Positions 6,320 through 23,925 of a DNA stretch of 64,000 nt are shown here, one piece after another. Location of the stretch: the NCBI RefSeq assembly GCF_001513975.1, contig NZ_KQ947985.1:1-64000 (forward strand), given 5' to 3'. Every line of letters begins with the position of its first letter. Positions within the stretch are counted from its first letter, which is position 1. The notes under the pieces were generated by a model. The model was given only the letters and a program-made list of their open reading frames with translations, made no database searches and was not told where the DNA came from. The translations under genes were made by a program, and so were the position numbers. Source of the stretch: Streptomyces curacoi (GTDB lineage: Bacteria > Actinomycetota > Actinomycetes > Streptomycetales > Streptomycetaceae).

Positions 6320-7099
6320 ATGCATGTTCAGGATTCTCGTTGGGCTTCCGCATCCGCCCTCGCAGCGGGCGGCGGGGCGGTGAGCGGCACGATGAGCGCG
6401 GCGACGGGCAACGGACGCGGGGACCAAGCGCGTACGACGCCGCTGCGCGTGGACGCACAGCGCAATCTGGAGCACGTGCTGCGTGCGGCGCGCGAGGTCT
6501 TCGGCGAGCTGGGATACGGCGCGCCGATGGAGGACGTGGCGCGGCGCGCGCGGGTCGGCGTCGGGACGGTGTACCGGCGCTTCCCGAGCAAGGACGTCCT
6601 GGTGCGGCGGATAGCCGAGGAGGAGACCTCCCGGCTGACCGACCAGGCACGTGCGGCGCTCGGTCAGGAGGACGAGCCGTGGTCGGCGCTCTCGCGCTTC
6701 CTGCGCACGTCGGTGGCCTCGGGCGCGGGCCGGCTGCTGCCGCCGCAGGTGCTGCGGGTCGGGGTCGCGGATGACGTCGTGCTCGACGAGGCGCGGGTGC
6801 CGCAGCAGCGGATGCAGCCCGGTGCCGGTGAGCTGCGGCTGGTGCCGGAGCAGTCGGCGGCGGTGACGGCGCACCCGGCGGACGACGCGGGGGCGGCGGC
6901 GCTGCTCGACGTGGTGGGCCAGCTCGTGGAGCGGGCGCGCGCGGCGGGTGAGCTGCGGGCCGACGTGTCGGTGTCGGACGTCCTGCTGGTGATCGCGACG
7001 GCGGCGCCCTCGCTGCCGGATGCGGCGCAGCAGGCGGCGGCCTCCGCGCGGCTGCTGGACATCCTGCTGGAGGGGTTGCGGTCGCGGCCTCAGGCGTGA
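6320..7099 (+). CDS. TetR-family transcriptional regulator
   Basis: A 259-residue TetR/AcrR-type repressor. The N-terminal HTH is clear: LEHVLRAAREVFGELGYGAP followed by MEDVARRARVGVGTVYRRFP, the family signature. The C-terminal ligand-binding domain (about residues 110-250) is all helical and not diagnostic. The first 45 residues before the HTH are longer than usual, so translation may start further in, for example at the ATG encoding MSAATGNG; I keep ATG 6320 because GGGGGATC precedes it. No adjacent divergently transcribed target gene is obvious, since ndh upstream is on the opposite strand about 385 bases away. That divergent gene is the most natural candidate target. Confidence 0.82.
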   Translation: MHVQDSRWASASALAAGGGAVSGTMSAATGNGRGDQARTTPLRVDAQRNLEHVLRAAREVFGELGYGAPMEDVARRARVGVGTVYRRFPSKDVLVRRIAEEETSRLTDQARAALGQEDEPWSALSRFLRTSVASGAGRLLPPQVLRVGVADDVVLDEARVPQQRMQPGAGELRLVPEQSAAVTAHPADDAGAAALLDVVGQLVERARAAGELRADVSVSDVLLVIATAAPSLPDAAQQAAASARLLDILLEGLRSRPQA

Positions 7100-7415
7100 T
7101 CCGGCCGGTGTGACGACCGTGGCTCGGCACGGGTGACCGGAGGCGGGGTGCTGCGCCGCCCTCGCCTCGAACACCCTCGCGAGCCATGCCGGGCATTTCG
7201 GTCGCCGCACTCGACTCCCGCCGGGCGAGTCTCGACTCCCGCCCGGTGAGGGTCGTTTGAGCTTTCCCCATACGGGTGATGGCCAGTACTGCCGTGCGAG
7301 AAAATCCCCACGGATGAGTGGATGGTCCGTACTGGTGGGTCCTGGACCAAAAGCCGATGTGGCACCCTGACCCGGTGTCCGGGACTGGTGGAGCTGGCGG
7401 CGGGGGCTTTCCGCG
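7100..7415. other. Intergenic region between tetR and the sigma factor gene
   Basis: About 315 bases with no gene recognised. CTCGACTCCCGCC occurs twice about 24 bases apart (near 7208 and 7232) with complementary CGGGCGAG nearby, so this segment can fold and may terminate tetR. The more AT-rich portion at about 7255-7330 is the likely promoter for the sigma factor gene, but I cannot assign boxes with confidence. Confidence 0.3.
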
Positions 7416-9344
7416 ATGAGCGTTGACGGGTGGGACGAGTCACGCGGTGACGGTGACTCGGCGACTCCGCAGGTGCCGAGTCAGGGCGGACGGGCGGACC
7501 TGCCGCCACGCGGCGACTCGCCGGAGCGACGCACACGGGGCCGTGCGGAGGGCAGCGTCCCGGCACAGCGCGACCGGCGCGAGGAGAGCGTGCTGCCGCC
7601 ACCGCGTGAGCTGCCGCCGTCGGACGCCGATCTGATCGGCCGGATGCGCTCCGACGACGACACCGCCTACGAGGAGCTGTACCGGCGCCACGCCGAAGCG
7701 GTGCGCCGGTACGCGCGCACCTGCTGCCGTGACGCCCACACCGCGGACGACCTCACGGCCGAGGTCTTCGCCCGCATGCTCCAGGCGGTACGCGGCGGCT
7801 CCGGCCCCGAGCACGCCGTACGCGCGTATCTGCTCACCTCGATCCGGCGGGCCGCCGCGGACTGGACGAAGTCGGCGCGGCGGGAGCAGCTGGTCGACGA
7901 CTTCGCCGTGTTCGCCGCGCAGTCCGCGCGCGTCTCCGAAGTCTCGGACGACACCCTGGACCTGGGCGCCGATGTGCGGGCGATGCACGAGGCCGAGCAG
8001 TCCATGGCCATGCAGGCCTTCCGGTCGCTGCCGGAGCGCTGGCAGGCCGTGCTGTGGCACACCGAGGTCGAGGACGAGTCGCCCAGCGAGGTCGCCACGC
8101 TCTTCGGGCTCGACGCCAACGGCACGCGCGTGCTCGCCAGCCGCGCCCGTGAGGGCCTCAAGCAGGCCTATCTCCAGGCCCATGTCAGCGCCAGCCTCGC
8201 CAGCGACGAGGGGTGCGCCCGCTACGCCGACCGGCTCGGCGCCTACGCCCGCGGCAGCCTGCGCACCCGCGCCGAGCGGGGCCTGCGCAAGCACCTGGAG
8301 GAGTGCGCCAAGTGCCGGCTGGCCGCGGGCCAGATCAAGGAAGTCGCCAGCGGTATCCCCGCCGTCGTGCCGGTCGCGGTCATCGGCTGGTTCGGCGCCG
8401 CCGGGTACGCCAAGGCGGCCGGACTCATCGCCGGCGGTGCGGGGGCCGGTGCGGCCGGTGCCGCGGGGGCGGCCGCGGCGGCGGGTGGCGGGTCGTCGGG
8501 CGGGGCAAGCACGGGCGGCGGCGCGGCGGTCTCGGAGGGGCTGGGCGCGCCGCTGAAGGCCGGTGTCGCGGCCGGTGTGGTCGCCGTGGGCGTGGCGGCG
8601 GCGATCGTGATCGCGCTGTCCGGCAACGACAAGCCGGTCGACAACGCGGACGCCAAGCAGCCTCCCGCGCCCTCCCCCATCGTCGAGGAGACGCCGACGC
8701 CCGAGCCGCCGGAGAAGGAGTCCGCGCCACAGCCGCCGGCCATCGTGCCGGCCGCGGAGCCCGAGCCGACGCCGACACCCACACCGACTCCGCCCCAGTC
8801 ACCCACCCCCACGCCCGATCCGCCGCGCACGCCTTCTCCGACGCCGCCCCCCACACCCACGCCGACGCCCACACCCCCGCCCACGCCGACTCCGACACCC
8901 CCGCCGGCCCCGGTCGTCTACCAGTGGAGCGAGCTGTCGTACGACGTCGCTGGTGACGGCACCGCGCCGGAGATGCGCATCGGCGGGAGCAGCTGGGTGT
9001 GGCAGCGGTACGGCATGTCCATCGGCGACAAGCACTACGCGCACGGCGTCACCGTGCACGGCCGGTCCTCCGTCACCATCGATCTCAACCGGGAGTGCTC
9101 CGCCTACGACGCGATGGTCGGCGTCGACGACACGAACCTGGGGCTCGGCACGTTCTCCTTCTCCGTTCACGCCGACGGCGTCCGGCTGTGGTCGTCCGGA
9201 GCGATCAAGGGCGGGGACCCGGCGGTGCCCGTCCATGTGAACCTGGCCGGACGCCAGACCGTACGGCTGGTGGTCGAGCCGCACAGCGCCTTCGACACCC
9301 TGCTGCTGGCGGACTGGGCGGAGTCCAAGTTCAGCTGCGTGTAG
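7416..9344 (+). CDS. Membrane-anchored ECF sigma factor with zinc anti-sigma motif and NPCBM domain
   Basis: A 642-residue fusion. Sigma region 2 is at about residues 80-150 (AYEELYRRHAEAVRRYA, DDLTAEVFARM) and region 4 at about 203-250 (LPERWQAVLW, SPSEVATLFGLDANGTRVLA). Then comes an anti-sigma-like zinc motif (H293, C297, C300 in HLEECAKC), a Gly/Ala-rich stretch, one transmembrane helix (about 388-408), a long Pro/Thr spacer (about 430-503) and a C-terminal NPCBM-type carbohydrate-binding domain (about 505-642, YQWSELSYDV to KFSCV). The layout puts the sigma domains in the cytoplasm and the sugar-binding domain outside, so a wall or carbohydrate signal could control the tethered sigma. 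It resembles ECF groups with long C-terminal extensions. No separate anti-sigma gene is adjacent. Convergent with the next gene (18-bp gap). Confidence 0.85.
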   Translation: MSVDGWDESRGDGDSATPQVPSQGGRADLPPRGDSPERRTRGRAEGSVPAQRDRREESVLPPPRELPPSDADLIGRMRSDDDTAYEELYRRHAEAVRRYARTCCRDAHTADDLTAEVFARMLQAVRGGSGPEHAVRAYLLTSIRRAAADWTKSARREQLVDDFAVFAAQSARVSEVSDDTLDLGADVRAMHEAEQSMAMQAFRSLPERWQAVLWHTEVEDESPSEVATLFGLDANGTRVLASRAREGLKQAYLQAHVSASLASDEGCARYADRLGAYARGSLRTRAERGLRKHLEECAKCRLAAGQIKEVASGIPAVVPVAVIGWFGAAGYAKAAGLIAGGAGAGAAGAAGAAAAAGGGSSGGASTGGGAAVSEGLGAPLKAGVAAGVVAVGVAAAIVIALSGNDKPVDNADAKQPPAPSPIVEETPTPEPPEKESAPQPPAIVPAAEPEPTPTPTPTPPQSPTPTPDPPRTPSPTPPPTPTPTPTPPPTPTPTPPPAPVVYQWSELSYDVAGDGTAPEMRIGGSSWVWQRYGMSIGDKHYAHGVTVHGRSSVTIDLNRECSAYDAMVGVDDTNLGLGTFSFSVHADGVRLWSSGAIKGGDPAVPVHVNLAGRQTVRLVVEPHSAFDTLLLADWAESKFSCV

Positions 9345-9362: not shown

Positions 9363-12300
9363 CTACGGGGCCCGCTCGGCCGGGTGGTGGAGATCGCGCA
9401 CGGCCTCGGCGAGGTCGCGCTGGACGTCGTCCTGGGTGAGGGCGGTGCCCTTGGTGTGCTCGGCGGTGAACCGCTCGGCGCCGAGGGCGGCGCGGGCGGC
9501 GGCCTCGGCCCGCTCGGCGTGCGCACGCTCCGGCAGGGGGCGTGGATGGCCACGACGCCAGCGCTCCGAGGCAGCCAGCAGGCGGACCGAGCGCGGATGG
9601 TCGCCGAGGTCGGTCAGCAGATCCGCCGCGGCGTCCACGAGGGTCGTCGTGATCACATCGGCGCACCGGTTCGCCACGGCCAGGTGCAGCGTGTGGGCGA
9701 GGAGAGGCAGTCCGTGCTCCGGACCCGACTCGCCCGTCACGATCAGGGCATCGAGCGCGTTCAGCATCACCATGAACTGGGGCGGTGGCGTGCCATGGGC
9801 GGCCGCCGCGCGGGCCGCCTCGTACATCTCACGCGCGCGTGCGGTGTCCTTGTCGTCCAGCGCGATCCAAGCCCGCATCAGCAGCACGAACGCCCGTGAG
9901 TCCGCCACGCCGTACCGGTCGGCCGCGGCGCTCGCCTCGTCCAGCGCGGTCAGCGCTGCCGTACGGTCGCCCGAGCGGTAGGCGATCTCGGCGAGCCGGG
10001 CGACGATGAACGGGGTCTCGGCGTAGGCGCCCACCTCGTGGGCGAGGCGCAGCGCCTCCTCGTACTCGCCCTTGGCCTCCTCGAAGCGGCTGCGCAGCAT
10101 GGCCGTCTCGCCGGCCGCGCTGCACACCTGGGCCCGCATCCAGCGGTCGCCGGTGCGGCGGCTGAGGACGCGCAGCTCCGCGAGGTCGTCGTCGACGCCT
10201 GCCAAGCCGCCCGGTGAGTCGACAAGCAGGTGCGTGCGGAACATCAGGACGCAGCCCACCTCCCAGTCGCCGCCGTGCTCACGGCAGTTGGCGAGCACGG
10301 CGTCCATGAAGGACCTGGCGTTCACCGAGTCGCCCACGAAGAGGTGGGTGAACGGCCAGACCAGACCCGGCATACGGGCCGCCTCCGGGCCGCCCCGGAC
10401 GAAGTGGGCCCGCACCCGCTCGACGTACCGCCGCAGTCGCTCGTCCCGCCGCCGCTCCAGCGGTTCGAACTCGATGGCGAGAAACAGATGCAGGAGGCGG
10501 AGGTTCATCCGGGGCGCATGCCGCGGATGGTGTGCCTCCCCGTCCGGGGCGGCGAGGAAAGTGTCCACCGGGTCGGGGGTGGAAGGAGCGGCGGGGGTGG
10601 GTGGTCCGCCGGTGTCCAGGGCGGCACACAGGCGCAGCACCCGGTCGATCCAGGCCGCGCCCTCGACGCGGTAGTTGCGCAGCCACCAGAACCAGCCCAT
10701 GGCGAGGGCGATGGAGGTGGCATCCGGCTCGTCGCCTGCCGTGAGGGCCCGGTCGAGGGCCGCCCGGATGTTGTCCAGCTCCGTCTCCAGGCGGGAGATC
10801 CACGGGAGTTGACCGGCGGAACGCAGGAGCGGATCGGCCTCCTCGACGAGCCCGCGCACCCACCCGCGGTGTCGGCGCTCGGCCGCGAGGCGCAGCTCGG
10901 GGACCTCGGCGGCGCGCTCGACGGCGTACTCGTGGATGGTCTCCAGCATGCGGTACCGCATCCCGTCGGAGCCGTCCCGCTCGCACGGGGCGGCCACGAT
11001 CAGGGACTTGTCGACGAGCGCGCCCATGAGGTCCGCGACCGGTCCGGTGCACACGGCCTCCGCCGCCGTCAGGTCCCAGCCGCCCGCGAAGACCGACGCC
11101 TCGCGCAGCACTGTCCGCTCCTGCTCGTCGAGCAGTTCCCAGGACCAGTCGACGACCGCGCGCAGGGTCTGTTGGCGGGGCAGGACCGTACGGCTTCCGG
11201 AGGTGAGGAGGCGGAAGCGGTCGTCGAGGCGGTCGGCGATCTGCCGGGGGGTGAGCAGCCGGAGCCGGGCCGCCGCCAGCTCGATGGCGAGCGGCAGACC
11301 GTCGAGGCGGCGGCAGATCTCGGCGACGGCCTCCTGGTCGCGGCCGTCGCTCAGCACGGCGTCGGTGTCGGGGCGGACGGCCGCCGCGCGCTCCGCGAAG
11401 AGTCGGTGCGCCTGGTCGGGGGGCAGGGGCTCGACCGGGCGCACCGACTCGCCGGGCACGCCCAGGGGCTCGCGGCTGGTGGCGAGGATGGTGAGCCCTG
11501 GGCAGTGGGTGAGCAGGGTCTCGGCGAGGGTGGCGGCCGCGCCGATGACATGTTCGCAGTTGTCAAGGATCAGGAGTCGGCTGCGCGGCGCGCAGTACTC
11601 GATCAGCAGGGCGACCGGGTCGTCCTGCGGGGCCGTGAGCTCGTTGGTCATGAGCACGGTCTCGCGCAGACCGAGCGCGTTGACCACCGCGCCTGGCACC
11701 GCCTCCGGCCGGTCGAGGGGGGCGAGCTCGACGAGCCATGCCTGGGGGAGGCCGGCGGCGGCTTCCTCGGCGAGGCGGGTCTTTCCAGAGCCGCCCGGTC
11801 CGGTGAGTGTGACCAGTCGGGCCCTGTGCAATTCGGAACGGATGGCGTCGAGTTCGAGTTCCCGGCCCACGAAAGAGGTAAGGCGAGGACGGAGGTTGCC
11901 GTTGGGTTCTGGGGGGTGGGGGTGGGGGTGGTGGGGAGCTGGCGGGGTGGGATGCGGTTGGGGGGTCGGGTTGAGGGCCAGGGTGGGGGTCGGGGCCGGT
12001 TGTCGGTTGGGGCCGGCCTCGGGGTGCTCCGGTGTGAGCAGTTCCGTGTGCAGGGAGCGGAGTTGGGGTCCGGGGTCGGTGCCGAGGCCGTCGGCGAGGG
12101 TGCGGCGGGCGGTTTCGTACGCGGCGAGGGCGTCGGCGGTGCGGCCCGTGGCGCGCAGGGCGCGGATGAGGTGGGAGTGCAGCGGTTCGTCGTACGGGTG
12201 CGCCGCGGTGAGTTCCTTGAGTTCGGGTACGACGGCCTGGGCGCGGCCGAGTCGCAGGTCCGCCTCGATACGGGCTCGGGTCGCCTCCAGGCGCAGGGCG

Positions 12301-12746
12301 TCCAGGCGGGTCGCGGTGGTGGTGCGGTCGGGGAGGTCGGCCAGGGCGGGGCCGCGCCACAGGGCCAGGGCGGTGGCCAGGTCGCGGGCGGCTGTGGAAG
12401 GGGCGCCGTGGGTGAGGGCGGCGGTGCCCTGGCGTACGAGGCGTTCGAAGACGAAGAGGTCCACGTCGTCCTTGGTCGCCGTGAGTCGGTAGTCGCCGGG
12501 GGCGGAGGTGATGGTGGCCTTGCCGAGGGTGCGGCGCAGGCGGCCGATCAGGGCCTGGAGGGCGGCGGGGGCGTCCTTGGGTGGGGCGCCGGCCCAGACC
12601 TCGTCTATCAGGGTGTGGGAGGTGGTGATGTGGCCGGGGCGTAGGGCCAGGGCGGTGAGCAGGGCGCGCAGGCGGGGGCCGTCTAGGGATATGACGGTGC
12701 CGTGATCGTCTTCCGCCTGGGTGACGCCCAGGATTCTGTACCGCAC
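9363..12746 (-). CDS. AfsR/SARP-type transcriptional regulator with NB-ARC ATPase and TPR-like tail
   Basis: An 1127-residue regulator. Order: OmpR/SARP-type winged helix (residues 1-95, LRALLTALALRPGHITT and VWAGAPPKDAPAALQALIGR), bacterial transcriptional activation domain (about 97-245, VDLFVFERLV to ALAAYETARRTLADGLGTD), a Pro/His-rich linker, then a STAND ATPase (SFVGRELELDAI, Walker A LTGPGGSGKTRLAEEAA, Walker B LLILDNCEHV, ATSREPLGV) and a helical repeat C-terminus. Proteins of this shape activate secondary metabolism. Start is GTG 12746 because the SARP domain begins there; no good ribosome site is seen, and the frame runs on upstream through repeat DNA. No biosynthetic cluster is adjacent, so it is probably an orphan regulator. 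Confidence 0.88.
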   Translation of the reverse strand: MRYRILGVTQAEDDHGTVISLDGPRLRALLTALALRPGHITTSHTLIDEVWAGAPPKDAPAALQALIGRLRRTLGKATITSAPGDYRLTATKDDVDLFVFERLVRQGTAALTHGAPSTAARDLATALALWRGPALADLPDRTTTATRLDALRLEATRARIEADLRLGRAQAVVPELKELTAAHPYDEPLHSHLIRALRATGRTADALAAYETARRTLADGLGTDPGPQLRSLHTELLTPEHPEAGPNRQPAPTPTLALNPTPQPHPTPPAPHHPHPHPPEPNGNLRPRLTSFVGRELELDAIRSELHRARLVTLTGPGGSGKTRLAEEAAAGLPQAWLVELAPLDRPEAVPGAVVNALGLRETVLMTNELTAPQDDPVALLIEYCAPRSRLLILDNCEHVIGAAATLAETLLTHCPGLTILATSREPLGVPGESVRPVEPLPPDQAHRLFAERAAAVRPDTDAVLSDGRDQEAVAEICRRLDGLPLAIELAAARLRLLTPRQIADRLDDRFRLLTSGSRTVLPRQQTLRAVVDWSWELLDEQERTVLREASVFAGGWDLTAAEAVCTGPVADLMGALVDKSLIVAAPCERDGSDGMRYRMLETIHEYAVERAAEVPELRLAAERRHRGWVRGLVEEADPLLRSAGQLPWISRLETELDNIRAALDRALTAGDEPDATSIALAMGWFWWLRNYRVEGAAWIDRVLRLCAALDTGGPPTPAAPSTPDPVDTFLAAPDGEAHHPRHAPRMNLRLLHLFLAIEFEPLERRRDERLRRYVERVRAHFVRGGPEAARMPGLVWPFTHLFVGDSVNARSFMDAVLANCREHGGDWEVGCVLMFRTHLLVDSPGGLAGVDDDLAELRVLSRRTGDRWMRAQVCSAAGETAMLRSRFEEAKGEYEEALRLAHEVGAYAETPFIVARLAEIAYRSGDRTAALTALDEASAAADRYGVADSRAFVLLMRAWIALDDKDTARAREMYEAARAAAAHGTPPPQFMVMLNALDALIVTGESGPEHGLPLLAHTLHLAVANRCADVITTTLVDAAADLLTDLGDHPRSVRLLAASERWRRGHPRPLPERAHAERAEAAARAALGAERFTAEHTKGTALTQDDVQRDLAEAVRDLHHPAERAP

Positions 12747-13102
12747 CGGGTCATTGTCGCGGGGGTGGCTGTTGGGGGCACGGGTTTTGTGGGCTTGGGG
12801 GGCGTGGGGTGGGGGTTTGTGGTTGCGGTGGTCGCGTGGGTGGGCGCTGGGAGGGTTTTCGCCCCCGCCGCCCCTACCCTTCCCATCCTGAAGGGGCTCC
12901 GCCCCTTCCACCCCGCCAGGGGGCTCCGCCCCCTGGACCCCCAGGCCTTTGCCCACCCACCACCCGACTCGGTCCGCCAAGAGGCGGGCTCGCGGGTCTG
13001 CACCACTCGGTCCGCCAAGAGGCAGCGCCGCCGGACGGAACGACCACCGCCCCCACTGGCCAGCCAGCCCACAAGGAACTGGCCCCACCCCTCCGACGCC
13101 CC
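12747..13102. repeat. Partial intergenic repeat plus a 19-bp direct repeat
   Basis: The gap upstream of the SARP regulator (minus strand) and 3' of the asparagine-synthetase-like gene holds a partial copy of the window's intergenic repeat (about 12,857-12,958: CCCCCGCCGCCCCTACCC, GGGGCTCCGCCCC) and a perfect 19-bp direct repeat ACTCGGTCCGCCAAGAGGC at 12,967-12,985 and 13,005-13,023. I see no gene here. The repeat may be a regulator site or a duplicated transcript-end element. Confidence 0.6.
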
Positions 13103-15202
13103 CTACCCCCTGCGCACCGCAGCCCCCGCCCCCAGCGCCCCCCGCTGGGGCGTGATCCCCGCCGGTACCGCTCGCTGGCGGGCGGGGGTGCCCGTCCAGC
13201 AGGTGCCGCGGCGGGCCAGTAGGCGGCGTAGCCAGAGTTCCAGGGAGACCAGGTCGGCCAGGCCGTCCAGGGGCAACGGCTCGCCCTCGGCCGCCGCGCG
13301 GAGGGCCTTGCGGACGACTCGGGCCTCCACCAGGCCCGCCTGGGCCAGGAGGGGGGTGCCGAACAGGGCCATCAGTGAGTCCGCTGCCACCCTCAGGCCG
13401 GTTCGCGCGGCTACCGCCGTGGGGGCGTGGGACGGGACGCCCCAGCCCGGTGGGAGGTCGGCCACTCCGGCGCCCTCCAGGACCGTGCGGAGGATTGCCG
13501 CGCGGGCGCCCGGCTGGACGCGCAGGGCCTCCGGGAGGGCTCGGCAGGCTCGGACTACCTGGTTGTCGAGGAACGGGGTGTGCAGGCGTTGGGAGCGGAT
13601 CTCGGCGGCCTGTTCGAGGACGCGTAGGTCCGCCGCGTGGCGGGCCAGTGCCGCACGCGCGCGATAGTCGCCCGGACGCTGGCCCGGGCCCACTCCGTTG
13701 CGGTGTGTGGCCGCTTGCAGGCGAACCGATACTTCAGCCAGCGCCTCGCCGGTCAGCCAGCGGGCCGCCGGGCCCGGTCTGGCCCAGGTGAGCGCGGCGA
13801 GCGACGCCCCTACGGCACCTCCGGGCTCGTCGAAGCGGCGGTGGAGGAGGCGGTCCGCCAGGGATTCCAGGCCCGTTCGGTAGGGGGTGCGGGACAGTTT
13901 GCGTGCCGCGCCGTACACGCGCGCGGGGACCAGCACCGAGCCGTCCGCCTTCGTCAGGGCCGCGACCGGGCGGACCAGGTGGCGGCGTTTGCGGTCCATC
14001 AGGAGGTCCGCGAGGCGGGCGGGGTGGGCGTCGAGGACCTGGCGGGCGCCGTAGCCGGTGAAGTGGTCCGCGCTGCCGGACGCCAGGCGTGCGCGGTGCC
14101 TCGCCGCCGTCACCAGGCTCGGTCCCGGCTCGTCCGTCAGCGGGCCGTCCAGGTCGGCGTACGGCAGCGTCTCCTCGCCGCCGGTCACCACCACGTGGTG
14201 CAGGCGGGGGTTGGCCGCCAGGGTTCCGGCGCGTTCCATCTCGGCCTCGCGGCCGCCCACCGCCAGGTCGTTGAAGGTGACGGCCAGGAGGCGTTCCCCC
14301 GCGCCCGTGCCGTGGCCCAGGACCGTGCCCGGCATGCCGGGGAGGCCGGCGGCCAGCAGCGCGAGGGTTGCCGAAGCCGGTCCCCCGGACAGGTCCGCCC
14401 CGATGCCCGGAACCGGCATCCCGCGCGCGGCGCGCCGCTCGGCGGGGCCCATCCCCGGCACCGGCCCGGGGTCTATGTCGGCGCCGGGCACATGGCGGGG
14501 CGCGGACAGACGCGCGCGTACCGCCTCGATCAGCGCGTCCCGTACGGCGTCCACCGCGCTGTCCGGGTCCGCCGTGGGCGCGGCCACCGCCAGCGAGGCG
14601 ACCGGCTCGTACCCGGCGATCTCCCGGGTCCCCGCGCGCAGGATCAGCGCATGTCCGGGCGGAATGCGCCGTACGCCGTCGTACGGGGTGGAGTCGTGCA
14701 GGGCGGCCGGTACGTCGGGGGCGGCGAGCAGGGCGGCGAGGTGCCCGAAGTCGAGGTTGGCCTCGATGAGGTCGGCGAGGGGGAGCGCGGCGGTCGCATA
14801 CGCCGTACCGCCCGCCCACGGGGTGTAGAACACCGGCCGTGCGCCCGCCAGGTCGCCGCACACCGTGACCCTGCGGCCGACCTGGACGACGGCCGTGTAG
14901 CTGCCGGGCCACGCGGTCAGATGCCGAAGTGCCCCTCCGCGCGCGGCGAAGAGGCCGACCCGCAGCTGTTCGTCGGTGGCGCCGCATGTCCCCAGGACGG
15001 CGATCCGGTTCTGCGCGTCGGCCTTCACCACGCGCACCTCGTCCGGGCGCCAGTCACCGACCGCCCACAGCGGATCGGGGTCGCCCCACAGGAGTTGGGA
15101 CCCCACCGGGTGCACGGTCTCGCCGTCGCTTCCGGTGGCCCCCGCGGAGCCGATCCGGGCGGCCACCGCGGCGGTGCTGCTCCATCCCACCAACCACCGC
15201 AT
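13103..15202 (-). CDS. Asparagine-synthetase-like protein with degenerate catalytic motifs
   Basis: A 699-residue protein with the asparagine synthetase B fold. The N-terminal glutaminase-like domain (about 1-210; GDLAGARPVFYTPW, RRIPPGHALIL) lacks the Cys2 nucleophile, as the protein starts MRWLVGW. The C-terminal synthetase domain (about 230-690) carries GADLSGGPASATLAL where the PPi loop SGGxDS would be, with Asp replaced by Ala. Its later part, LDNQVVRACRALP, matches the family. Lasso-peptide cyclases use this fold to form isopeptides, but no precursor, protease or RRE gene is nearby. ATG 15202 follows GGAGG closely. Possibly an inactive homologue or a divergent adenylating enzyme. Confidence 0.75.
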   Translation of the reverse strand: MRWLVGWSSTAAVAARIGSAGATGSDGETVHPVGSQLLWGDPDPLWAVGDWRPDEVRVVKADAQNRIAVLGTCGATDEQLRVGLFAARGGALRHLTAWPGSYTAVVQVGRRVTVCGDLAGARPVFYTPWAGGTAYATAALPLADLIEANLDFGHLAALLAAPDVPAALHDSTPYDGVRRIPPGHALILRAGTREIAGYEPVASLAVAAPTADPDSAVDAVRDALIEAVRARLSAPRHVPGADIDPGPVPGMGPAERRAARGMPVPGIGADLSGGPASATLALLAAGLPGMPGTVLGHGTGAGERLLAVTFNDLAVGGREAEMERAGTLAANPRLHHVVVTGGEETLPYADLDGPLTDEPGPSLVTAARHRARLASGSADHFTGYGARQVLDAHPARLADLLMDRKRRHLVRPVAALTKADGSVLVPARVYGAARKLSRTPYRTGLESLADRLLHRRFDEPGGAVGASLAALTWARPGPAARWLTGEALAEVSVRLQAATHRNGVGPGQRPGDYRARAALARHAADLRVLEQAAEIRSQRLHTPFLDNQVVRACRALPEALRVQPGARAAILRTVLEGAGVADLPPGWGVPSHAPTAVAARTGLRVAADSLMALFGTPLLAQAGLVEARVVRKALRAAAEGEPLPLDGLADLVSLELWLRRLLARRGTCWTGTPARQRAVPAGITPQRGALGAGAAVRRG

Positions 15203-15927
15203 CGACGCCTCCACAGGCTGTGGACAACCAGTGCACCGAACGAACCGGGTCACCATGCTGCCATGAAGGGCGCGCGCCGGAGCGGCGGCGGAGCCGCTCG
15301 AGATCCGGTAATCGCGCCTGCGCGGGCGCCCCCGTGCCGATCGGGGCGCGAGTCGGACACGGCCCGAACTCAAGGACGGGGCAAGGGGATCGATGGACGG
15401 CCGCGACGCGAATGCGCCCCCGGTACGCTCCCCGAAAACGCCCTTCGCGCCCTCAACTGCCATGGTGGGAGCGGTAATCACCCCAAGGCAGCGGGGTCGA
15501 TTTTCGGCCAAATCGGCGCTGTAGAGACAGGCTCGCGCACACTCCGTGCAAGCCCTGCGGACTACTCGCCGTGCTCGGCGTGCGCGCAGTCCGGGGAACG
15601 GAGTTCGCCCCCCGGACCGTTCCGCCGCCCGCGGGGATGGAGGCGGCGGAATCCCCCAGCCCACTGGATCCAGTACAGCGGGCCGACCCACGCACGAGTC
15701 ATGGAACCGTTCCCCGGATGGCCGGAGAAGAGCGCACGGACGGGCGCACGGCCACACAGCGGGAGCACGCCACAACTGTCCGTACAGAGGCCGTACTTCA
15801 GTACGGACCACAATCCCGCCATCCGGAAGAATGCCCCTTAACGCTTGGGATGCGGCGAACTACGCTGGGTTTACGAATGCCGCGTGGTTATGCCAGCGCG
15901 GCAGCCGTCTGTGTCGAGGGGTGGCGC
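15203..15927. other. Long divergent intergenic region with hairpins
   Basis: 725 bases between two divergent genes, with no protein-coding signal I trust, although GC-rich frames stay open. Two perfect hairpins stand out: TTCCGCCGCC (15,620-15,629) with GGCGGCGGAA (15,642-15,651), and CCGTAC-TTCA-GTACGG (15,791-15,806), the latter inside a wider GTCCGTAC/GTACGGAC dyad (15,778-15,808). The second lies about 120 bases upstream of the TPR regulator start and may be an operator or an RNA structure in its 5' leader. Confidence 0.4.
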
Positions 15928-19938: not shown

Positions 19939-21285
19939 GTGGCCACCTGTCCCCCGTATCCGACGCCCCCCACCGGTCCCACCGGCGGTGCACTGCGGCA
20001 GGCGCACTGGTGGCAGAAGCGGTGGGTGCGTTACGGCGCGCTCAGCACCCTGCTCGCGCTGTCCGGGCTGGTCATCCTCGCCCTGGTGCGTGAGCAGACC
20101 GGCACCGAAGGGTTCCTGGTCGGGCTGGGGCTCGCCGTCCTGCCCGTGCCGCTGCTCGTCGCCTCCTTCCGGTGGCTGGACCGGGTCGAGCCGGGCCCCT
20201 GGCGCAATCTGGTGTTCTCCTTCGCCTGGGGCGCCTGCGCGGCGGCGCTGATAGCGATCGTCGCCAACAGCTTCGCGACCAGATGGATAGCGACGGCGAC
20301 CGCCGATCCGTCCCACGCGGACACGCTCGGCGCGACGGTCATAGCGCCCGTCGTGGAGGAGACCGCGAAGGCCGCCGCCGTCTTACTCGTCTTCCTCTTC
20401 CGCAGGCAGGACTTCACCGGGATCGTCGACGGCGTGGTGATAGCGGGGGTCACGGCCACCGGATTCGCCTTCACCGAGAACATCCTCTACCTCGGCACCG
20501 CCTTCGGTACCGACCAGCTCTCCGGCGACAGCGGCATCGCCTCCGTCACCGCGGCGACCTTCTTCGTCCGCGTCATCATGTCGCCGTTCGCGCATCCGCT
20601 CTTCACCGTCCTCACCGGCATCGGCTTCGGGATCGCGGCGCTGTCGGGCGAACGGCAGCACCTGCGCCGCGTCTTCCTCCCGCTTTCCGGGCTGCTGCTC
20701 GCCATGGGCATGCACGCGCTGTGGAACGGCTCGTCGACCTTCGGTGAGTTCGGGTTCTTCGCCGTGTACGCGGCTTTCATGGTGCCCGCGTTCGGGCTGC
20801 TGACCTGGCTGGTGATCTGGACGCGGCAGCGTGAGCTGAGAACCGTGCGGGAGGAACTGCCCGCATATGTCCTCGCCGGGTGGCTGGCGCCGGCGGAGCC
20901 CTTCGCGCTCGGGTCGATGCGGGCCCGGCGGGTGGCCCGGCAGTATGCGCGGCGCCATGGTGGGCGGGCGGCCGGCCGGGCGGTGGCGCAGTACGAGGCC
21001 TACGCGACGTCGTTGGCGTTCCTGCGGCATCGGGGGCGTCGGGGGCGGGCCGGGGCGGACTTCGTCGTGCGGGAACGGGAGTTGCTGTACGAGCTGTGGC
21101 GGCGTCGGGAGGTTGCTCGGCCGGCGCTGGAGCGGGCGGCGGGTGCGGCGCAGGCTTGGCCGGGGTATGGGTATGGCTATGCGGGGCCGGTGGCGGTTTA
21201 CTGGCCGGCGTACGGGCAGGGGGGTGCTGGGCAGGTCCACGGGTCGGTGGCGCCGTATCCCGCGTACAACCCGTATCGGTCGTGA
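19939..21285 (+). CDS. PrsW-family intramembrane metalloprotease
   Basis: A 448-residue polytopic membrane protein. About eight hydrophobic segments span residues 30-310. The PrsW active-site motifs are visible: VVEETAKA (EExxK, about residue 138), GFAFTENILYL, HPLFTVLTGI and MGMHALWNGS. PrsW proteases clip membrane anti-sigma factors (site-1 cleavage) in Bacillus; the Streptomyces substrate is unknown. The C-terminal ~130 residues form a soluble tail rich in Arg, then Tyr/Gly. GTG 19939 is directly preceded by TTAGGGTCAATGCC with a TAGGGT -10-like box, so this transcript may also be leaderless. An intergenic repeat element follows the stop. Confidence 0.88.
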   Translation: MATCPPYPTPPTGPTGGALRQAHWWQKRWVRYGALSTLLALSGLVILALVREQTGTEGFLVGLGLAVLPVPLLVASFRWLDRVEPGPWRNLVFSFAWGACAAALIAIVANSFATRWIATATADPSHADTLGATVIAPVVEETAKAAAVLLVFLFRRQDFTGIVDGVVIAGVTATGFAFTENILYLGTAFGTDQLSGDSGIASVTAATFFVRVIMSPFAHPLFTVLTGIGFGIAALSGERQHLRRVFLPLSGLLLAMGMHALWNGSSTFGEFGFFAVYAAFMVPAFGLLTWLVIWTRQRELRTVREELPAYVLAGWLAPAEPFALGSMRARRVARQYARRHGGRAAGRAVAQYEAYATSLAFLRHRGRRGRAGADFVVRERELLYELWRRREVARPALERAAGAAQAWPGYGYGYAGPVAVYWPAYGQGGAGQVHGSVAPYPAYNPYRS

Positions 21286-22717: not shown

Positions 22718-23743
22718 TCAGGGCGTGAGGCCCTTGCCGCGCAGCCACGCCAGCGGGTCGATGCCGTTGCTGCTGCCGTCGGGGTGCACCTCAAGGTGCA
22801 GGTGGGCGCCGGTCACGTTGCCCGTCGCACCCACGCGGCCGATGACGTCGCCCGTGCTGACCTTCTGGCCCACGCTCACGCTGATCGAGGACTGGTGGGC
22901 GTACCAGATCTCGGTGCCGTCCTCCAGGGTGAGCACCGTCTTGTAGCCGTACGACCCGTCCCAGCCGGCGAAGGTGATCGTGCCGGTGTGCACCGCCTTG
23001 ATCAGCGTGCCGGAGGGGGCGGCGAAGTCGAGGCCCGTGTGGTAGCCGGAGGACCAGTAGGCGCCGGCCTGACCGAAGGTCGAGGTGATGGTGTACGAGG
23101 AGGTCGGCAGCGCGAACTGCTTGGCCAGCTCGGCGAGGCGCTCCGCCTCGGCCTTCTTGCGGGCCTCCTCCTCGGCCTTGGCCTTCGCGGCGGCGGCCTT
23201 GGCCTCGGCCTCCTTCTCCGCCTTGGCGGCCGCGGCGGCGGCCTCCTTCTCGGCGGCGGCGACCGCGTCGGCGACGGCCTTGCTCTCGATCTGGTCCTGC
23301 TGCTGCTCGACCTGGGCCATGATCCGGGCCCGCAGCGCCTCACCGGCGTCGCCGGCGCCCTGCGTGGTCTCCTCGGTGACCTCGCCCATGGTGCTCAGCG
23401 CGGTCGCGGAGTCCTCGGGGTTGTCGGAGGAGTCGTCCGAGACGAGGGGCAGGTCGGGGATGGAGATGGAGACCGGCGGCTTGCCGGTCTGCGCGGTGGC
23501 CATGCCGCCCGCGCCGACGGCGGCTATGACGCCGACGCCGAGAACTGTGGAGCTGCGGGCGAGTCCCCCGCCGCGCTGCTTGGTGACGCGATGCCTGCCG
23601 CGGACCGGACGGATGGACTCCGCGGTGGGGTTCCACTCCTCGAACGGGGCCTCGTCGGTGCGGTAGCGGTCGTAGCCGAAGGTGTCGGTGCTGCGCTGAC
23701 TCGGCACAAACGGGGCTTGCGGAGCAGGCCTGTTGGACGCCAC
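22718..23743 (-). CDS. Secreted M23-family peptidoglycan endopeptidase
   Basis: A 341-residue protein with an internal hydrophobic signal/anchor (about residues 65-85, SSTVLGVGVIAAVGAGGMATA) after a charged N-terminus, an Ala/Lys/Glu-rich coiled coil (about 135-215, where many frames are open) and a C-terminal LytM/M23 domain. Zinc ligands are visible: SGYHTGLDFAAPSGT (HxxxD) and GNVTGAHLHLEVH (HLH). It probably cleaves peptide cross-links of peptidoglycan. GTG 23743 is chosen because AAAGGAG lies about ten bases before. The long leader carries a c-di-AMP riboswitch, so expression should respond to that second messenger. Confidence 0.9.
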   Translation of the reverse strand: MASNRPAPQAPFVPSQRSTDTFGYDRYRTDEAPFEEWNPTAESIRPVRGRHRVTKQRGGGLARSSTVLGVGVIAAVGAGGMATAQTGKPPVSISIPDLPLVSDDSSDNPEDSATALSTMGEVTEETTQGAGDAGEALRARIMAQVEQQQDQIESKAVADAVAAAEKEAAAAAAKAEKEAEAKAAAAKAKAEEEARKKAEAERLAELAKQFALPTSSYTITSTFGQAGAYWSSGYHTGLDFAAPSGTLIKAVHTGTITFAGWDGSYGYKTVLTLEDGTEIWYAHQSSISVSVGQKVSTGDVIGRVGATGNVTGAHLHLEVHPDGSSNGIDPLAWLRGKGLTP

Positions 23744-23769
23744 GTGGGCGTACTCCTTTCCTTCCTTCT

Positions 23770-23925
23770 CGCCTACCGGGTTAGCTGACGGGTTCGGAGC
23801 AGGAAGGTCTCCTACGCGCGTAAACCGGCCGTGAGTTCACGGCGGTTTTCGCGCGATTCACCCCAGGGTGGTGGTTCCCCGGTTCCCGTACTGCGGTACG
23901 GGATTCGGCGCGTGCGCACGGAGCC
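23770..23925 (-). promoter_or_regulatory. c-di-AMP (ydaO-yuaA class) riboswitch
   Basis: The minus strand between 24,160 and the M23 start carries the conserved ydaO blocks in order: CCGGGGAACC, GGGGTGAATC, GTAGGAGACCTTCC and CCGAACCCGTCAGCTAACC ending with CGGTAGGCG. The ydaO class senses c-di-AMP and is known upstream of cell-wall hydrolases in Streptomyces. The aptamer ends 26 bases before the start codon, close to the ribosome site. Sequence 23,926-24,157 upstream is leader/promoter DNA; I see no gene there. Confidence 0.93.

Follow-up and report, generated by a model that had tools for sequence, protein, structure and literature searches.

A gene in the 64,000-nucleotide stretch of Streptomyces curacoi DNA analyzed here (the window; contig NZ_KQ947985.1, positions 1 to 64,000) encodes an ECF52 sigma factor that, judged by domain architecture and gene order, is the ortholog of SCO4117 of Streptomyces coelicolor. 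One 642-residue chain joins an extracytoplasmic function sigma factor, a zinc finger of the anti-sigma type, a membrane helix, a Pro/Thr-rich spacer and a sugar-binding NPCBM domain. This sigma-membrane-NPCBM design is already known; what is added here comes from comparisons and is modest in extent. Coordinates are reported in Table 1.

Table 1. Features of the ECF52 locus in the window; residue numbers are those of the encoded protein.
Feature	Coordinates	Strand	Basis or remark
TetR regulator, AtrA ortholog by position	6320..7099	+	Pfam TetR_N
Conserved upstream blocks CCCaCGGAcGaGTGg; TGGCACnCTGacCCGGTG	7307..7377	+	76 upstream sequences, window's included
ECF52-type sigma gene, 642 aa	7416..9344	+	ATG start; Pfam/NCBIfam domain matches
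Sigma region 2, residues 88-156	7677..7883	+	Pfam PF04542 (Sigma70_r2), 48.3 bits, cut-off 24
Sigma region 4, residues 199-246	8010..8153	+	Pfam PF08281 (Sigma70_r4_2), 20.8 bits, below cut-off 25.7
Zinc finger zf-HC2, anti-sigma type, residues 267-301	8214..8318	+	Pfam, 23.1 bits, cut-off 22.2
Conserved hydrophobic juxtamembrane segment, residues 313-334	8352..8417	+	dN/dS, hydropathy
Main transmembrane helix, residues 383-401	8562..8618	+	Kyte-Doolittle mean 2.6
Pro/Thr-rich spacer, residues 403-500	8622..8915	+	Composition in 58-protein alignment
NPCBM (CBM51-like) domain, residues 505-639	8928..9332	+	Pfam, 100.9 bits, cut-off 23.9
SARP/AfsR-type regulator, convergent, SCO4116 position	9363..13088	-	Pfam BTAD
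PrsW-family intramembrane protease	19939..21285	+	Full Pfam match; not needed by the preferred model

The first-pass annotation had read sigma regions 2 and 4, an HxxxCxxC finger, a membrane helix, a Pro/Thr spacer and an NPCBM domain on one chain, and Pfam, NCBIfam and hydropathy bear this out. Sigma region 4 lies inside the span of the NCBIfam sigma70-ECF match TIGR02937 (residues 84–251, 63.3 bits, cut-off 42.9). The published hallmarks of ECF52 are present, namely an ECF sigma factor with regions 2 and 4, a fused finger, a transmembrane region, a proline-rich extension and a predicted carbohydrate-binding domain. Relatives were confirmed in species genomes for 327 of 341 candidate stretches, and 80 of the 327 were kept, all titled Streptomyces. 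The full-length alignment contains 58 proteins; 23 of the 80 loci were excluded for a frame running off the contig, an early stop or a mis-joined sequence. L021, L059, and L064 appear broken in or beyond the repeat-rich part and were taken as sequencing or assembly faults. L031 and L067 were excluded from the sigma-finger alignment because anchor patterns failed or the sequence was too short. An artefactual fusion through a missed stop or an assembly error was ruled out, as 57 full-length relatives besides the window's protein carry the fusion in one frame.

Gene order was compared with that published for SCO4116 to SCO4119 of S. coelicolor, where SCO4117 has the same domain order (PMC5826349, available portions). 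The window shows this ECF52 order: the counterpart of atrA (SCO4118) precedes the gene and that of SCO4116 follows it. Where the flank is long enough, the TetR gene is the same-strand upstream neighbor in 78 of 79 loci (the exception is L074), and an NADH-dehydrogenase gene lies beyond it on the opposite strand in all 79. A convergent SARP-type regulator follows in 47 of the 59 loci whose flank reaches far enough; the other 12 have no match within range. An sRNA of family Scr4115 (RF02829, 112 bits) at 15585–15693 (-) overlaps the listed start of an asparagine-synthase-like ORF (13103–15811) and supports correspondence to the SCO4115 region. Farther along, a c-di-AMP riboswitch (Rfam RF00379, 95.7 bits) at 23755–23920 (-) lies just upstream of an M23 peptidase gene on the same strand (22718–23743).

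The likeness to SCO4117, the first characterized ECF52 member (PMC5826349, available portions), comprises the domain order, the gene order by atrA and SCO4116, the standing as sole ECF52-type gene of its genome, and conservation in the genus. No difference of kind was seen; the strain and the exact residues differ, and the two were likened by description rather than by alignment. Ser15 and Thr231 are published phosphosites of SCO4117. In the available portions of other papers, a Streptomyces venezuelae sigma factor is tabulated as “r2, r4, NPCBM” (PMC11256431), and glycosyl hydrolase and carbohydrate-binding domains are mentioned for ECF52/53 (PMC10766802). The ECF52/SCO4117 literature, in the portions available, describes no cleavage, ligand or zinc binding of an ECF52 protein.

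The two conserved blocks upstream of the gene are a possible promoter or operator, as read from their conservation, and one of them contains a CCAC/GTGG inverted repeat. A genome search for TGGCACnCTGacCCGGTG with at most two mismatches returned five sites, the gene's own included, versus five for the reversed control, showing no excess. The published motif CSGYN-17-SRHA is degenerate; 5′ of the gene it has one match under one spacing reading and none under the other, and its background in the window is 0.37–0.54 per 300 bp on one strand.

Constraint was estimated by simple counting as the median dN/dS of the window's gene versus 57 relatives. Sigma region 4 has the lowest value of the protein's parts (0.04), and 50 of its 60 residues at 196–255 are invariant across 58 proteins; a degenerate sigma factor was rejected on this value. 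Residues 313–345, which follow the finger, are second lowest (0.096), and sigma region 2 (residues 80–156) is at 0.15. Such low values for sigma region 4 and the post-finger segment are expected if both are functional. Values are higher for the N-terminal extension (0.35), finger (0.38), spacer (0.39) and membrane helix (0.47), and NPCBM is under moderate constraint only (0.48). The finger is not tightly conserved overall, yet its ligand residues are. The HxxxCxxC motif, H293/C297/C300, appeared in 27 of 20,000 shuffles of the protein, C267 is the candidate fourth ligand, and none of the four candidate zinc ligands varies among the 58 aligned proteins. The finger has the Hx3Cx2C pattern of class I anti-sigma domains. 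In class I anti-sigmas, sigma region 2 is bound by helix 4 and sigma region 4 by helix 1 (PMC7406223, available portions). By position and constraint, the segment at residues 313–334 is probably the fourth helix of an anti-sigma domain. AlphaFold was run on the full protein (58 rows) and on sigma plus finger (79 rows) with shallow alignments of Streptomyces sequences throughout, and the sigma/finger part was unusable in both, with a mean pLDDT of 53.

The spacer between helix and NPCBM is 90–115 residues long (median 102) in the 58 proteins, with a median of 57% proline plus threonine. The AlphaFold model of NPCBM is usable, with 11 of 15 ten-residue blocks from residue 501 at 90 or above. It matches the CBM51 modules 7js4, 8pvs, 7jrl (with GlcNAc) and 2vmg (with methyl-galactose), and the best solved relatives by sequence are 2vmh and 2vmg (E about 1e-5). 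The C-terminal domain has the same fold as 2vmg, 7jrl and 7js4, with a TM-score of up to 0.76 by target length, whereas those modules belong to glycosidases and a peptidase and share about 20% identity with it. GlcNAc-containing sugars may tentatively be named as the first candidate ligand, because 7jrl is a GlcNAc-bound CBM51 relative and the neighboring regulator AtrA activates the GlcNAc permease gene nagE2 (PMC4457907, available portions). The genome of S. curacoi has one NPCBM match. Two loci of the genus, L154 (genome G076) and L155 (G342), contain the ECF52 sigma and finger with no NPCBM match at E 1e-5. The L154 frame continues without NPCBM and the L155 frame reaches the end of the fetched stretch; loss, swap or frameshift is possible.

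The first-pass annotation had also proposed a search for related fusions. A profile of the finger and the following segment was run at E 0.001 against a sample of 393 genomes from the class to which the window belongs (Actinomycetes), and this sigma-finger-membrane chassis was matched in 103 of them, weak matches included. Strong matches (E below 1e-17) occur in 42 of 44 Streptomyces genomes; of the other two, G390 has a weak match only and G286 none. The S. curacoi genome has one strong match and a second, weak one (E 7.5e-4) with an internal stop. Forty weaker matches were picked for closer inspection. HxxxCxxC is present in 39, and at E 0.001 Pfam finds sigma region 2 in 30, region 4 in 24 and zf-HC2 in 28. 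Above the cut-off, 17 of the 40 carry a domain from families that we take to be exported-type: a ricin-type lectin in nine, an Ig-like domain in four (one protein has both), and DUF642, DUF3344, DUF11, CAP and NPCBM in one each. The NPCBM-bearing match (L140) is a diverged ECF52 of Streptomyces. Five Streptomyces loci (L116, L128, L133, L135, and L141) combine a ricin lectin, HxxxCxxC and a membrane helix with no Pfam sigma or zinc-finger match, and may or may not be working sigma factors. Among the literature titles and abstract openings listed, no earlier mention of ricin-type versions was found; this does not establish novelty. On a tree of 44 sigma-finger segments, from which L142 (no HxxxCxxC) was left out and whose long branches make details unsafe, the ricin label needs three changes, gains or losses, with at least two forced by well-supported branches. 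For the Ig-like label, clustering does not exceed that of shuffled labels.

A single transmembrane helix had been annotated at first. The strong helix at about residues 383–401 stands, and the number of passes is uncertain since a second hydrophobic stretch at about residues 310–331 (Kyte-Doolittle mean 1.63–1.78) is conserved. If that stretch also spanned the membrane, NPCBM would lie inside the cell. This arrangement draws on the hydrophobicity and conservation of the stretch, which the octanol scale ranks above the main helix and Kyte-Doolittle below it, and on the weaker chassis matches, of which 22 of 40 have at least two stretches above threshold, 19 of these with one soon after the finger. 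NPCBM has moreover been suggested to act as a sensor inside the cell in some actinobacterial conflict systems (PMC8195603, available portions), so the domain type by itself is no proof that it lies outside. Two passes are nevertheless judged very improbable. NPCBM contains exactly two cysteines, C561 and C641 (the latter just past the Pfam domain end), both invariant in 58 of 58 proteins, and the Pro/Thr spacer has none. This pair, the Pro/Thr spacer and the exported-type domains among the weaker matches argue that NPCBM would be outside the cell. By position, the segment also fits anti-sigma helix 4, and under that assignment a single pass would be kept with NPCBM outside. Three passes are likewise possible.

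For activation, the preferred account, held to be moderately probable for this protein, is autoinhibition in cis relieved by glycan-triggered cleavage outside the cell and then by M50-type cleavage in the membrane. The sigma-2/sigma-4 module would be held inactive by the fused zinc-finger anti-sigma domain, and one membrane helix with the spacer of about 100 residues would carry the CBM51-like domain into the wall. Binding of a glycan, probably a wall or matrix sugar at a developmental switch, would lay the stalk open to cleavage by a site-1 protease, after which a protease of the M50 family (RseP/RasP-type) would cut in the membrane and trimming would free the sigma factor for development and antibiotic genes. 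IutY and the ligand-binding anti-sigma receptor RsiV, both described below, serve as precedents. Proteolytic release of the ECF52 sigma has already been proposed, in the discussion of PMC5826349 and the review PMC8999054 (available portions of both). The initial reading of a tethered sigma factor with an exported sugar-binding domain in need of release therefore agrees with what is published for ECF52/SCO4117.

Published mutants of SCO4117 bear on whether cleavage is needed. In the available portions of PMC5826349, the knockout delays aerial mycelium, sporulation and actinorhodin and lowers CDA. A strain with only the sigma part is late in both actinorhodin production and sporulation and yields less CDA than wild type, but it outpaces the full deletion in sporulating, and its SCO4117 expression is up 1.3-fold; these last two observations count in favor of the preferred account. 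The sigma-only strain is not hyperactive, so taking away finger and tether is not by itself an on-switch, and the C-terminal part of SCO4117 may also act positively. These data would suit a mechanism free of proteolysis, in which glycan binding or wall tension would shift the conformation, the finger would release, and sigma would work while still tethered to the membrane; a positive role of the tether would fit a sigma-only strain with neither full nor excess function, and the same discussion (PMC5826349) lists a change of conformation as another option. A Pro/Thr spacer of this length, however, should pass on force or shape poorly, and proteolysis is what activates IutY, a fused relative (PMC8999054, available portions), so this mechanism is considered unlikely. 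The PrsW-type gene noted in the first pass about 10.6 kb away is confirmed and is the sole PrsW match in the genome. PrsW acts on the anti-sigma factor RsiW of Bacillus subtilis, which favors it as the site-1 protease releasing sigma, as does its distribution: it is found in 240 of the 393 genomes, comprising 98 of 103 with the chassis versus 142 of 290 others (Fisher odds ratio 20, p 2e-19, kinship uncorrected). Against it, genome G213 of the same genus has no PrsW match and retains a complete ECF52 gene (L153), sigma part through NPCBM, flanked by the same neighbors, so PrsW does not occur wherever the system is intact. The link, called unproven when first suggested, is not supported. PrsW is also without a match over the cut-off in chassis-match genomes G023, G124, G128, and G227; chassis genes are full-length in G023 and G128, that of G227 runs off the contig, and the match of G124 is weak. 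One of the five genomes has a chance-level match (E 0.66). No PrsW-like sequence was found within the fetched 5–7 kb around 40 other chassis genes. PrsW in this role is accordingly rated improbable. The stretch between the TrmB-like and M23 genes of G213 yielded neither a PrsW-like nor an aldo/keto-reductase-like sequence, and a nearby oxidoreductase gene was also unmatched, so that the block of this genome differs in several genes; TrmB, reductase and oxidoreductase were named by eye. M50 proteases are matched in the S. curacoi genome and in all five chassis-match genomes lacking PrsW. They are also matched in 14 of 14 control genomes, so their presence says little. For the membrane cut, an M50 protease of RseP type is preferred as candidate on the model of IutY, which uses RseP.

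Related systems place the protein among known designs, as described in the available portions of the sources. ECF53 and ECF48 also fuse sigma to a zinc-finger anti-sigma domain and one to two membrane helices, with proteolysis expected (PMC8999054), but are ECF groups separate from ECF52. IutY of Pseudomonas putida (ECF243) likewise has sigma and a membrane anti-sigma on one chain, and Prc and RseP release its sigma; in contrast, it is an iron-starvation system with a siderophore signal (aerobactin), and no glycan-binding ectodomain is described for it in those portions (PMC8999054). In RsiV/SigV of B. subtilis, the anti-sigma itself serves as receptor through its extracellular portion, and cleavage begins once the ligand binds, whereas sigma and anti-sigma are separate proteins and the ligand is lysozyme (PMC5014341). 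A wider reading is offered tentatively and is on balance doubtful: the fusion could be an interchangeable actinomycete receptor chassis whose exported domains, lectin and Ig-like ones among them, were swapped repeatedly, with ECF52 as the Streptomyces core version that would respond to a wall or matrix glycan and be released by M50 without PrsW.

The protein would be a one-chain signaling device leading from the cell wall to RNA polymerase, and in S. coelicolor its counterpart influences when sporulation and antibiotic production occur. The comparisons narrow the protease question, as PrsW looks dispensable and M50 stays possible. Related proteins with different exterior domains provide a set for testing the receptor idea.
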